From Candidatus Hadarchaeales archaeon (GTDB taxonomy: Archaea; Hadarchaeota; Hadarchaeia; Hadarchaeales; WYZ-LMO6), in contig JAVYML010000002.1 of NCBI GenBank assembly GCA_038736355.1, positions 1 to 64,000 of the forward strand: DNA of 64,000 bases. Reading direction: 5' to 3'. Below the pieces are notes generated by a model. That model had not been told where the DNA came from, ran no database searches, and saw nothing but the letters and a program-made list of their open reading frames with translations. Both the position numbers and the translations under genes were made by a program. Within the stretch, counting starts at the first letter, position 1; each line of letters opens with the position of its first letter. Shown here piece after piece: positions 59,530-64,000 of this stretch.

Positions 59530-60042
59530 ATGGCCAACCGAAGACCCTCCATGGACGAATATTTCTTAGAGCTGGCGAGGGTAGTGGGTCTCAGATCCAC
59601 CTGTCTGAGGAGGAAATTCGGGGCCGTGATAGTGAAGGATGGGGTGGTGCTGAGCTCCGGTTACAACGGTGCTGCCAGAAAGGTTAGGGACTGTCTGGAA
59701 GTGGGTCTCTGTCTCAAGGATGTGGTGGGGGCTCCCCACGGTGAAGGATACGATGTCTGTCCCGCCGTGCATGCCGAAGCCAACGCCATCGTCAACGCCG
59801 CCAGATCTGGAGTGAGCATCCTCGGAGGAACCATGTATCTCTATGGACAGGATGCCCAAGGAAAGGTGGTTGAGGGAAAACCCTGTACCTTCTGTAGAAG
59901 GCTTCTGATAAACTCCGGCATAGAAAAAATCGTGTTCAAAAAAGAAGACGGTACGTTGGGATACTACGATGTCAAGGAATGGGTAAGGGACGAATCCTTA
60001 GACCATCAGAGAAAGATCCAGCAGTACACCGGAAAGGGATGA
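59530..60042 (+). CDS. dCMP deaminase / cytidine deaminase family (ComEB-like)
   Basis: A 170-residue zinc deaminase with VCPAVHAEANAIVNAA (zinc His and catalytic Glu, about residues 76-91) and GKPCTFCRRLLINSGI (the two zinc cysteines). The N-terminus, PSMDEYFLELARVVGLRSTCLRRKFGAVIVKDGVVLSSGYNGAAR, is typical of dCMP deaminases, which supply dUMP. That fits a genome using ThyX and an anaerobic ribonucleotide reductase. It converges on the winged-helix regulator with a one-base gap. Confidence 0.93.
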   Translation: MANRRPSMDEYFLELARVVGLRSTCLRRKFGAVIVKDGVVLSSGYNGAARKVRDCLEVGLCLKDVVGAPHGEGYDVCPAVHAEANAIVNAARSGVSILGGTMYLYGQDAQGKVVEGKPCTFCRRLLINSGIEKIVFKKEDGTLGYYDVKEWVRDESLDHQRKIQQYTGKG

Positions 60043-60043
60043 C

Positions 60044-60736
60044 TTAAACGCACTTACTTTCTTCCGGATACTTGGAATAGACGTATTCCAGTAATTCCTT
60101 GAGCCCCATCCCGTTGAACTTTTTCAGCTCCTCCATCTTTTTCCTGATTTCCTCCGGAAGACCGTTGAAGAGTTCGCTAGCCATCTTCTCTCCTTCAGGG
60201 GTCAGCGAACAAAATACGGGTTCCAGCAATTCCCTCTCAACCCTTACCAAACCAGCCCTTTCCAACTCCAGCACATCGTCCGGTATCTCCTCCGAATAAG
60301 GGCCCCTGAGGTAGGGGAGGAAGCGATAGGGGAGGGAATCCACCCCAAGTTCCCTTTTCAGGAGGAAGAGGAGTTTCTGAAGTCTTACGCTCCCTTCGAC
60401 CGCTCCCCCCAATGAGTAGAGGAGGGCCAGAATCCATTTTCCCCTTTCCATCACCTCCTCCCTCTCCCTCTTTCCAGGCTTGGAAACCGCCGAAACTTCC
60501 AGCTTGAGAATGGCCGCCACCCTCCTTCCCTCAGGCGTGAGCTCCAGTATCCTGCGGAAGGGCCACTCCTTCATCTCCCTTTCCCTCACCAAACCCTCCC
60601 TTATGAGCTCCTTCAAGCGCATCTCTATCGTCAGAGCGCTACCCTTAACCTCTGCCTGTAGTTCCCTAACGTGCTTGGGTCCTTTGAGCAGACTGAGGAG
60701 GATTTCCGGAGCCTTGCTTCTCCTCAATCTGTACAT
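60044..60736 (-). CDS. Winged-helix transcriptional regulator with SocA/Panacea-like C-terminal domain
   Basis: A 230-residue protein. Residues 1-75 are a winged helix (EILLSLLKGPKHVRELQAEVKGSALTIEMRLKELIREGLVRERE, then RRILELTPEGRRVAAIL). The second part (about 95-230) has a helix-rich domain SVRLQKLLFLLKRELGVDSLPYRFLPYLRGPYSEEIPDDVLELERAGLV, resembling a family found alone or next to HTH proteins in archaea; its ligand is unknown. Its promoter contains a perfect palindrome between TATA and start, so it probably represses itself. It faces nrdG. Confidence 0.8.
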   Translation of the reverse strand: MYRLRRSKAPEILLSLLKGPKHVRELQAEVKGSALTIEMRLKELIREGLVREREMKEWPFRRILELTPEGRRVAAILKLEVSAVSKPGKREREEVMERGKWILALLYSLGGAVEGSVRLQKLLFLLKRELGVDSLPYRFLPYLRGPYSEEIPDDVLELERAGLVRVERELLEPVFCSLTPEGEKMASELFNGLPEEIRKKMEELKKFNGMGLKELLEYVYSKYPEESKCV

Positions 60737-60744
60737 CCAAAAGT

Positions 60745-60761
60745 GTTACATTCGATGTAAC
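60745..60761. promoter_or_regulatory. Perfect palindromic operator in the regulator promoter
   Basis: GTTACATTCGATGTAAC is a 7-bp perfect inverted repeat around TCG. On the minus strand a TATA sequence (60763-60768, reading TATAAA) lies 27-32 bases before the regulator ATG at 60736, and the palindrome sits exactly between TATA and start, where a bound repressor would block transcription. Confidence 0.75.
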
Positions 60762-60833
60762 GTTTATACCTTATTCTAGACTACTTTCGGCCCTGCCATA
60801 TTCTACGGGTCAAGTATAACCTTTTTAAAAAAT

Positions 60834-60857
60834 GTTACGTGTTTTAAAAACGATAAC
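60834..60857. promoter_or_regulatory. Imperfect inverted repeat upstream of nrdG
   Basis: GTTACGT (60834-60840) and ACGATAAC (60850-60857) form an inverted repeat around a TATA-like TTTTAAAAA, ending 27 bases before the nrdG ATG. Its half-site shares GTTAC with the regulator palindrome, so one factor may bind both. Confidence 0.5.
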
Positions 60858-60884
60858 GCGGAGGGAGGTTTGGTGGGGGTTTTA

Positions 60885-61613
60885 ATGAACGAAGCCATGA
60901 AAATCCCTTCAGGGGAACTTCCCTGGGGAGGTCTTCAAAGGCTCTCCTTATTAGACTATCCGGGGAGGGTAGCCTCCATTCTCTTCGTGAAGGGGTGCAA
61001 TTTTCGATGTCCCTTCTGTTACAATCCACAGCTGGTGAGGGGGGAGGGAAGGGAAATACCCACCCAAGAGATCCTGGACTACCTGAAGAGGAGGAAGGGA
61101 TGGATAGACGGGGTGGTCATCACCGGAGGAGAACCCACTCTTTACCCGGGATTGGTGGAATTCCTGAGGGAACTGAAAGATGAAGGGCTCGAGATAAAGC
61201 TCGACACCAACGGCTCCAGGCCTGATCTTCTCCGGGAGCTTCTGGGGGAAGGTTTGGTGGACTATGTGGCCATGGACATAAAGGCTCCCCTCAGGGAAGA
61301 GAGCTACAGCAAAGTGGCGGGCGTTCCCCTTCACCCAAGGGAAATCAGGGAAAGCCTTGACCTCCTCCTCTCCTCACGGATAGATTACGAGCTCAGGACT
61401 ACCGTGGTTCCCACCCTGCTTGGGGAAGAGGAAATACTGGAAATAGCGGGGGAAATAAGGGGTGCCAAGAGGTATTGCCTCCAGCAGTTCAGGCGCACTC
61501 CTTTCCATCTGGATGAGCGTTTTTCCCGAGTTTCCCCTTACCCGAGGGAATTCTTGGAAAGGATCAGGGAAAAGATCTCCGGGTACTTCGGTGAGTGCCT
61601 GGTGAGAGGATGA
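60885..61613 (+). CDS. nrdG: Anaerobic ribonucleotide reductase activating enzyme
   Basis: The radical SAM enzyme that installs the glycyl radical on NrdD. The 242-residue protein has LLDYPGRVASILFVKGCNFRCPFCYNPQLV (cluster motif CNFRCPFC, near residue 38-45), VVITGGEPTLYPGL and LDTNGSRPDLLRE. The ATG at 60885 follows a GGTGGGGG ribosome-binding site; an upstream TTG at 60870 is in frame but less likely. Its stop overlaps the nrdD start in ATGA. Confidence 0.95.
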   Translation: MNEAMKIPSGELPWGGLQRLSLLDYPGRVASILFVKGCNFRCPFCYNPQLVRGEGREIPTQEILDYLKRRKGWIDGVVITGGEPTLYPGLVEFLRELKDEGLEIKLDTNGSRPDLLRELLGEGLVDYVAMDIKAPLREESYSKVAGVPLHPREIRESLDLLLSSRIDYELRTTVVPTLLGEEEILEIAGEIRGAKRYCLQQFRRTPFHLDERFSRVSPYPREFLERIREKISGYFGECLVRG

Positions 61614-64000
61614 GCCCGATTAGAACGGTGAAGAAGAGGGATGGATCGGTACAGGACTTCGATCCGAGGAGGATAGGGGAGGCGATAAGGAAGGCGGCGG
61701 AAGCGCAGGGATGGCTGGAGTTCGAGGGGGAGGCCAGGAGGCTTCAGGAAATCGTGGTCAGGAAACTGGAGGAGAAGGGGTACGGGGAGGAGAGGATCCC
61801 CTCGGTGGAGGAGATCCAGGACGAGGTGGAGGCGGTGCTGAGGGAGGAGGGATATGGGACGCTGGCGGAGAGGTACCACGAGTACAGGAGGAGGCACGAC
61901 GAGCTCAGGAAGAGCAGGAGCACCCTCTTCGATGTGGGGAAGATGGTGGAGGAGTTCATAGGGGAGAGGGACTGGAGGGTGAGGGAGAACGCCAACCTAA
62001 GGCCTTCCATTTCCTCGATGATGTTCAACTCGGCCGGCGCGATCAACGCCAGGTACCTCCTGGACAAGGTCTATCCTCCCGAGGTGAGCGATGCTCACAT
62101 CGACGGGGATCTCCATCTCCACGATCTGTATCAGGGAGTGTGCGGGTACTGTTTCTCCGAGGACACGAGGGTGCTGACGAGGGAGGGATTCAAGTACTTC
62201 TGGGAGGTCACGCCCGAGGACGAAATAGCGACGCTCAACCTCCGCACCGGCGAGCTGGAGTACCAGAAACCCCTGGCGAAGCAGGAATTCTATTTCGACG
62301 GTTACCTCTACCACTGGCAGAACAAAGCCGTGGACCTTCTGGTGACCCCCGAACACAGGATGCTCGTCAGGATGGCGCTCGTCAAGAAACGCGCAAAGCC
62401 CGACGGGGAGAGGCTCAGGAAGTACAGGAGGGTTTTCATGCTGAGGGATGGGGGTCTGAGTCTGAGGGGGGTCTCCGGCAGGGTTGGGATTCCGCTCGGA
62501 ACCATCCAGGAATGGATCTACCACGGGAGGAAGCCGGTTTACCGGGGGCACAAGCTCAAGGTGGAACCGCAGGTCCTCATCAACGGTTGGAGGATCCTGA
62601 CCGCCAAACAGCTCAGCGACCACTACTCCCTGTACGAGTTCAGGAAAGGAGGGGTGAGGTGGAGGGGCAAAGAGAGAGATTCCTTTGACTTTTTGTCGGT
62701 AAGGGTCTGGTGCGGGGAATGCGGGAGGAGGGTACCCCCGGATGCCCTGAACTGTCCGAGGTGCGGCTCCTCCTCCTTCACCAGGAAAGAGGAGGTGAAA
62801 CGCGTTCCGGCGGAGGTTTTCGTCAGGTTCATGGGGTGGTACCTTGCGGAAGGCAATGTTTGTATATCGAAAAAGGGGTATAGGATAGCCATCTCACAAC
62901 TCAACGGGAGGAAGCAGAAGAGGATAGCATCCATAATGCGCGAGATGGGGCTGAACCCATGCATTACCAGGTTCCATGTGTCCTCCCATGCAAGCTGGCT
63001 CTACGAGTACCTGAAGAGGCTGGGCGGGTCAAAGGAGAGGTTCATTCCGCAGGAGATCAAGGAACTTCCCCCGAACCTGCTGAGACTCTTCCTCTCCGAA
63101 CTCTTCGCCGGGGACGGCGTGAAGAGAAAAGGTAAGCTGATACGATATTACACGGCGTCCAAGAAACTGGCGGAGGATGTGGTGGAGTGTCTGATAAAGG
63201 TGGGGAAATGCGGGACGATAAGGGAAGAGAAGGGCCGCTATGAAGTGACGGTGATCCACAGACAACTCACTCCAGAATTTGAAGGCAAGCCCAAGCTGGT
63301 CCGCTACCGGGGGAAGGTCTATGACCTAACCGTTCCCAACGGGACCCTCCTGGTGGAGAGGAAAGGGAAGGTGGTGTGGTCGGGAAACTGCGCGGGCCAT
63401 TCGATGGAGGATATCCTGACGAAGGGGCTGGTGAGCGTGGGGAACAATCCCCATTCCCATCCCCCGAAGCACCTGGACGTGGCCCTGATGCAGGTCGTGA
63501 ACTACATAGGGGTGATGACGCAGGAGTGGGCGGGGGCGCAGGCCTTCTCCTGGATAGACGTTTACCTTGCCCCCTTCATCAGGGAGGATGGTCTGAGCGA
63601 CAGGCAGCTCAAACAGCTCCTCCAGATGTTCGTGTACAACCTGAACGTGACCTCCAGGTGGGGAGGGCAGTGCGTCTCCGAGGACACGGAGGTGTTGACC
63701 GAGGAGGGATGGAAGAGGTACGATGAGCTGAGCATGGAAGACAGAATAGCAACTCTTAATCCGGAAAAAAGAAGGATAGAATTCCTCAAGCTAGAAGGCA
63801 TCCACGTCTACGATTACGAGGGGGAGCTGATCCTCCTCAAAAACAGGGTTACCGAGCAGCTCGTCACACCCAATCACAGAATACTCAGGAAAAAGTTCAA
63901 TTCTGAGACCCTCGAATTCACCGAAGCGGAGAAACTCTTAGCCTTTGATTCTTCCCCCATCCTGCCCATAGCAGGGGAAAATGAGGGAAAGAAAGAGGTG
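61610..64000 (+). CDS. nrdD: Anaerobic ribonucleoside-triphosphate reductase, intein-containing (partial)
   Basis: The class III reductase that makes deoxyribonucleotides without oxygen. The frame starts in ATGA with nrdG and is open to the window end (797 codons). It has an N-terminal ATP-cone (VKKRDGSVQDFDPRRIGEAIRKAA), then ENANLRPSISSMMFNSAGAIN and HIDGDLHLHDL. The reductase is interrupted after Tyr180 by intein 1, resumes as CAGHSMEDILTKGLVSVGNNP... to TSRWGGQ, and is interrupted again by intein 2. The glycyl-radical C-terminus is beyond the window. Confidence 0.95.
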   Translation, partial: MSPIRTVKKRDGSVQDFDPRRIGEAIRKAAEAQGWLEFEGEARRLQEIVVRKLEEKGYGEERIPSVEEIQDEVEAVLREEGYGTLAERYHEYRRRHDELRKSRSTLFDVGKMVEEFIGERDWRVRENANLRPSISSMMFNSAGAINARYLLDKVYPPEVSDAHIDGDLHLHDLYQGVCGYCFSEDTRVLTREGFKYFWEVTPEDEIATLNLRTGELEYQKPLAKQEFYFDGYLYHWQNKAVDLLVTPEHRMLVRMALVKKRAKPDGERLRKYRRVFMLRDGGLSLRGVSGRVGIPLGTIQEWIYHGRKPVYRGHKLKVEPQVLINGWRILTAKQLSDHYSLYEFRKGGVRWRGKERDSFDFLSVRVWCGECGRRVPPDALNCPRCGSSSFTRKEEVKRVPAEVFVRFMGWYLAEGNVCISKKGYRIAISQLNGRKQKRIASIMREMGLNPCITRFHVSSHASWLYEYLKRLGGSKERFIPQEIKELPPNLLRLFLSELFAGDGVKRKGKLIRYYTASKKLAEDVVECLIKVGKCGTIREEKGRYEVTVIHRQLTPEFEGKPKLVRYRGKVYDLTVPNGTLLVERKGKVVWSGNCAGHSMEDILTKGLVSVGNNPHSHPPKHLDVALMQVVNYIGVMTQEWAGAQAFSWIDVYLAPFIREDGLSDRQLKQLLQMFVYNLNVTSRWGGQCVSEDTEVLTEEGWKRYDELSMEDRIATLNPEKRRIEFLKLEGIHVYDYEGELILLKNRVTEQLVTPNHRILRKKFNSETLEFTEAEKLLAFDSSPILPIAGENEGKKEV
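62150..63388 (+). other. Intein 1 of NrdD (413 aa, with DOD homing-endonuclease domain)
   Basis: Starts at Cys181 (CFSEDTRVLTREG, splicing block A), block B reads VTPEHRMLV, and the C-terminal end is TVPNGTLLVERKGKVVWSGN just before the extein Cys. The penultimate residue is Gly rather than the usual His. Two LAGLIDADG-like helices are visible, RFMGWYLAEGNV (about 62827-62862) and LFLSELFAGDGV (about 63088-63123). Between block B and the endonuclease lie a basic stretch with a helix-turn-helix pattern (RGVSGRVGIPLGTIQEWI) and a zinc ribbon CGECG...CPRCG (62710-62766). Confidence 0.93.
63671..64000 (+). other. Intein 2 of NrdD (partial, N-terminal splicing domain)
   Basis: Starts at TGC 63671 after extein residues TSRWGGQ; CVSEDTEVLTEEG is block A and VTPNHRILR is block B. 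The intein runs past the window end, so the endonuclease and the second splice junction are not seen. The insertion point is the conserved GGQ-(T/V)-PF active-site motif of ribonucleotide reductases. Confidence 0.92.

Follow-up and report, generated by a model that had tools for sequence, protein, structure and literature searches.

A candidate autoregulated repressor and its operator at the nrdG-nrdD operon of Hadesarchaea

The window analysed here, a 64,000-nucleotide stretch of archaeal DNA, is part of a 1.27-Mb assembly whose named relatives are Hadesarchaea metagenome-assembled genomes. Its last part, 59530-64000, holds a dCMP deaminase-family gene (+), a gene for a 230-aa regulator (-), nrdG (+) and nrdD (+), with the following features:

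59530-60042, plus strand: dCMP/cytidine deaminase-family gene (PF00383, E 6.5e-18)
60044-60736, minus strand: regulator, 230 aa, two domains, start ATG at 60734-60736
60745-60761, no strand: operator 1, a putative autoregulatory site, GTTACATTCGATGTAAC, with the conserved GTTAC-N7-GTAAC
60762-60770, minus strand: TATA-like box of the regulator gene, GGTATAAAC, assigned from sequence and abutting operator 1
60822-60831, plus strand: TATA-like box of nrdG, TTTTTAAAAA, assigned from sequence, its TTTAA core kept in G000, G001 and G003
60834-60838, no strand: extra half-site GTTAC, 7 bp upstream of operator 2, invariant in G000, G001 and G003
60841-60857, no strand: operator 2, putative and degenerate, at the nrdG promoter, GTTTTAAAAACGATAAC, placed by alignment with relatives and matrix rank
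60873-61613, plus strand: nrdG, NrdG2-type radical SAM activating enzyme (TIGR02495 NrdG2, 219 bits, above cut-off)
61595-64000, plus strand: nrdD, class III ribonucleotide reductase with an ATP-cone-like N-terminus, extending beyond the window to genome position 65872

The nrdG reading frame opens at 60870 (+) and nrdD follows. Because GGAGG and an xTGGGGGTT region align across relatives, the most likely start of nrdG appears to be the GTG at 60873 behind GGAGG, with the ATG at 60885 a possible one. The deaminase-family gene, another nucleotide gene, is convergent with the regulator gene, a single base separating the two; it is linked to the regulator only in the window's own family (G000, the genome of the window, G001 and G003).

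The regulator has eight full-length orthologues (46-71% identity), all in genomes of the same order, and a profile search of the phylum's 28 genomes, all metagenome-assembled, added no full-length copy to these nine. As the first-pass annotation had described for the window, the regulator faces nrdG-nrdD, and the divergent, back-to-back arrangement holds in 9/9 copies, with nrdD alone in G004. The neighbour on the nrdG/nrdD side is thus constant while the other flank varies, a linkage that genome comparison establishes for nine carriers; they represent three families of one order, and so few independent lineages, and several are incomplete. Among the matches listed from 394 archaeal genomes, those outside the phylum are essentially confined to a single domain, most often the C-terminal, and two-domain relatives elsewhere in archaea were rejected on these grounds. 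No viral relatives were found.

A perfect palindrome had been described between the regulator's own TATA box and its start, and it is there, at 60745-60761, between the minus-strand TATA-like box and the start codon. In operator 1, two perfect 7-bp arms enclose an asymmetric TCG centre (GTTACAT-TCG-ATGTAAC); the 17-mer has a single exact copy in the 1.27-Mb assembly. Within the adjoining TATA-like box, GTAACGTTTATACCTTA is invariant in G000, G001 and G003. Given the usual archaeal TATA-to-start spacing, transcription of the regulator gene is predicted to start at about 60739, which would make the message leaderless.

Conservation of this site can be read directly from the relatives. Every one of the nine regulator-nrd intergenic regions carries at least one exact GTTAC-N7-GTAAC; on the regulator side it is exact in G000, G001, G003, G004, G014, G021 and G025, and one mismatch away in G012 and G022. 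The nine regions together hold eleven exact sites, and fourteen at up to one mismatch, while 500 dinucleotide shuffles of the same regions gave a mean of 0.004 loci and a maximum of 1. The site thus stands far above chance. When every inverted repeat with 5-bp arms and a spacer of 0-15 bp was considered, the runner-up was common to only three loci. The intergenic DNA besides the site is hardly alike between families and the proteins differ by up to half of their residues, so the shared site is not accounted for by recent common ancestry alone. A matrix built from the relatives only (G000 excluded) ranks the 60745 site first in the 64-kb window. Palindrome and nrdGD linkage, on whose presence in relatives the first-pass annotation had staked its idea, were thus both found in all nine carriers, and the idea survived.

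The site is also specific to this locus. The pattern GTTACRN5YGTAAC occurs at 11 places in the phylum's 28 genomes, eight of them at the regulator-nrd locus, one at another promoter in G004, and two within genes of G010 and G013, both without the regulator; a reversed control pattern occurs at four places in three of the same genomes. In the genome of the window, the other exact GTTAC-N7-GTAAC (C2:35385) and all one-mismatch sites lie within genes, for which reason a wider regulon there was rejected, and the pattern search found no such site near the class II reductase gene. Upstream of the 13 nrdD genes unlinked to the regulator no site with one mismatch or fewer was found (up to 600 bp; 332 bp for G004 C9), and a two-mismatch match occurs in G005 only, 573 bp upstream. 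Five of these unlinked nrdD genes, with an ATP-cone-like N-terminus or type, were inspected and have no regulator alongside. G004 has a third exact operator (L094, C34:6563-6579), identical to its nrdD-side site, GTTACAGTTAGCGTAAC, and preceding a gene for a 70-aa CxxC-type protein, then Ku-like and ATP-dependent ligase-like genes (end joining); in that genome the regulon may also include DNA repair.

At the nrdG promoter of the window the picture is less clean. An inverted repeat with the GTTAC half-site had been proposed at 60834-60857 (GTTACGTGTTTTAAAAACGATAAC); a related site is indeed present, but its structure is better described as a degenerate 17-bp operator at 60841-60857 plus the extra half-site. 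Operator 2 has lost its left half and has three mismatches, and it aligns with GTTACAAAAATGATAAC in G003, one mismatch from consensus, and with GTTTTAAAAATGATAAC in G001. The relatives-only matrix places it sixth best in the 64-kb window and, taken alone, it barely stands out from shuffles of the stretch in which it lies (fraction 0.05), so the case for operator 2 rests on conservation: a block GTTACGYGTT..AAAAAYGATAAC is mostly identical in G000, G001 and G003. Second copies near nrdG or nrdD, exact or with one mismatch, occur in G003, G004, G012, G021 and G022. In three of these (G012, G021 and G022) overlapping divergent TATA-like boxes lie between the two sites, whose separation is 31-32 bp. 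A constant helical phase, or a general looping rule between the two sites, was rejected on the spacings observed (31, 32, 31, 92, 96, 131 and 139 bp). In G014 and G025 no second site was found in the intergenic region at up to two mismatches, so control of nrdGD there would have to act from one site in a shared region of 79-88 bp.

The regulator comprises an N-terminal winged helix, HxlR/MarR-like by Pfam and by fold (about residues 5-80), and a C-terminal domain like Panacea and the DarG C-terminus (about residues 88-228). The regulator matches Pfam HxlR (E 6e-7, 29.6 bits against a cut-off of 20.8), all nine orthologues match it at E <= 0.1, and the C-terminal half matches DUF4364 (Pfam, E 3e-6). 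In PADLOC, residues 89-226 match PDC-M19A, a candidate defence family (2.5e-13), a type I specificity subunit (2.8e-9) and DarG (1.2e-4). An AlphaFold2 model (pLDDT 82.6) has Foldseek matches to YodB, MarR proteins and DarG 7yk3, all weak by E-value, the DarG C-terminal domain being a weak fold match to the C-terminal half. None of the nine orthologues matches the Pfam Panacea model (PF13274), which is approached by the distant homologue G359 only (E 0.0019, below cut-off), and the Pfam search gave no macrodomain match in the regulator. The earlier description of a SocA/Panacea-like second domain is therefore fair in a broad sense: this C-terminus belongs to a broad Panacea/DarG-C-terminal group known for protein binding. 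The accompanying proposal that it senses nucleotides is only a guess, as nothing points to a ligand and the closest relatives of known function, Panacea antitoxins and the DarG C-terminal domain, bind proteins. No cysteine column is common to even three of the nine orthologues, and for that reason direct sensing of redox state or metals via conserved cysteines was rejected. The C-terminal domain also has a 171-aa homologue that stands by itself (L028, G026 C55, 8415-8930); it lies near a 1009-aa restriction-modification methylase-like protein, and no nrd gene was found near it.

NrdR, the bacterial repressor of reductase genes, is rare in archaea (PMC9110341). Its absence had been anticipated, and the comparison bears this out: TIGR00244 gives no match above cut-off in the 28 phylum genomes and none for the regulator itself, and NrdR as a hidden controller was rejected. 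The carriers possess another reductase besides nrdGD, a class II enzyme in G000, G001 and G003 and a second class III enzyme in G004, G012, G014, G022 and G025 (a fragment in G021), which hints at an accessory class III enzyme as the one under the regulator's control; two reductases also occur in the regulator-less genomes G005, G008 and G013, so this link is a correlation only.

The nrdD of the window is one 1425-aa reading frame with two large insertions (about residues 187-596 and 693-988) relative to the 695-aa G001 protein, which look like inteins; the class II reductase reading frame of the same genome (C1:238195-240519) is longer too, at 1035 versus 709 aa in G001. The nrdD genes of G000 and G001 group with those of the regulator-less G013 and G018 on a long branch (L032, L020, L021), unlike their regulator and nrdG, for which identity to the G003 counterparts is 61-71%; either fast evolution of nrdD or its replacement in situ beside a retained regulator may account for this.

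We consider it likely that the protein is a transcriptional repressor dedicated to the nrdG-nrdD operon and autoregulated. Autoregulation, as had been suggested, is supported by the operator at the regulator's own promoter, and control of nrdGD by the linkage and the related sites at the nrdG/nrdD promoter. We infer that the winged helices of the regulator, probably a dimer, contact the inverted repeat GTTAC-N7-GTAAC. In the promoter of the regulator gene this repeat occupies the space from TATA box to start, so that bound regulator would block initiation; the second, often weaker site overlaps the predicted start, near 60852 for nrdG in the window, at the nrdG/nrdD promoter, where binding would likewise block nrdGD, and the paired sites 31-32 bp apart in three relatives would switch both genes together. 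Archaeal repressor sites usually lie downstream of the TATA box or overlap the start. The C-terminal Panacea/DarG-like domain would receive a signal, a small molecule or a protein partner, that lifts repression under conditions requiring the accessory class III enzyme.

The regulator might instead control only itself, its adjacency to nrdGD being historical and the nrdG-side matches secondary. The regulator-side site is the stronger one in the window, G014 and G025 have no recognisable second site, and autoregulation alone would account for the strongest sites. We nonetheless regard this reading as improbable: the constant nrdG-nrdD (or nrdD) neighbour in 9/9 copies contrasts with a differing other flank, second sites are exact or one mismatch away in five genomes, the block at the nrdG promoter is invariant in G000, G001 and G003, and the site is absent where nrdD is unlinked to the regulator. 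Activation of nrdGD instead of repression seems very improbable, since the site at the regulator promoter lies downstream of the TATA box and the nrdG site overlaps the predicted start; the extra operator on G004 C34, just upstream of a TATA-like box, would suit an activator but is not direct support for one. That the sites lie between TATA box and start, or across the nrdG start, is what points to repression by blocked initiation.

That the protein is itself an antitoxin also has to be weighed, as antitoxins combining an HTH with Panacea are known (PMC8832971), the C-terminal domain is similar to DarG and to candidate defence proteins, and the stand-alone homologue in G026 is near a restriction-modification-like methylase. 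Yet no toxin gene was found in a two-gene operon with the regulator, whose neighbours are nrdG-nrdD plus the deaminase-family gene in one family; there is no DarT neighbour, the conserved neighbour nrdG-nrdD is divergent, and the Pfam Panacea model is reached by no orthologue. An antitoxin of the HTH-Panacea kind whose toxin has been lost or gone unrecognised is thus hardly probable at all.

Ribonucleotide reductase is an essential enzyme, and little is known of how archaea control its transcription; we found no account of an archaeal alternative to NrdR in the open-licence literature. The dedicated repressor proposed here points to a previously undescribed local switch for this enzyme in Hadesarchaea, which can be tested in vitro now that a candidate regulator, its operator and a very small regulon have been delimited. 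It is tempting to speculate, though we hold it rather unlikely, that a Panacea/DarG-type protein-binding domain was recruited as the sensor of a metabolic repressor, binding a pathway protein (e.g. NrdD or NrdG) or a nucleotide and closing a feedback loop on ribonucleotide reductase unrelated to NrdR. If true, an antitoxin-like domain would be serving in metabolic control.

Among known systems, NrdR would be a functional parallel: it is a dedicated controller of reductase genes, often of its own gene too, and its palindromic boxes overlap the promoter. Two such boxes are bound by NrdR at a distance of about three helical turns (PMC9110341), a spacing like the 31-32 bp between the two sites in G012, G021 and G022; NrdR itself is built of a Zn ribbon and a nucleotide-binding ATP-cone, whereas the regulator here joins a winged helix to a Panacea/DarG-like domain and has a different putative site. 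HxlR/MarR repressors such as YodB share the winged helix, by Pfam and by fold, and have an inverted-repeat operator at the promoter, to which the conserved GTTAC-N7-GTAAC would correspond, but the regulator has an extra C-terminal domain and lacks the conserved cysteine used by redox-sensing members. HTH-Panacea (PanA/SocA-like) proteins are antitoxins that bind their toxins (PMC8832971); they likewise combine an HTH at the N-terminus with a domain from this broad group behind it, with possible autoregulation, while the regulator is without a toxin partner, is divergent from a metabolic operon and is only distantly similar to the Panacea model. Finally, although it has neither the macrodomain of DarG nor a DarT neighbour, the C-terminal half of the regulator shares a weak sequence and fold match with the DarG C-terminal domain (7yk3).
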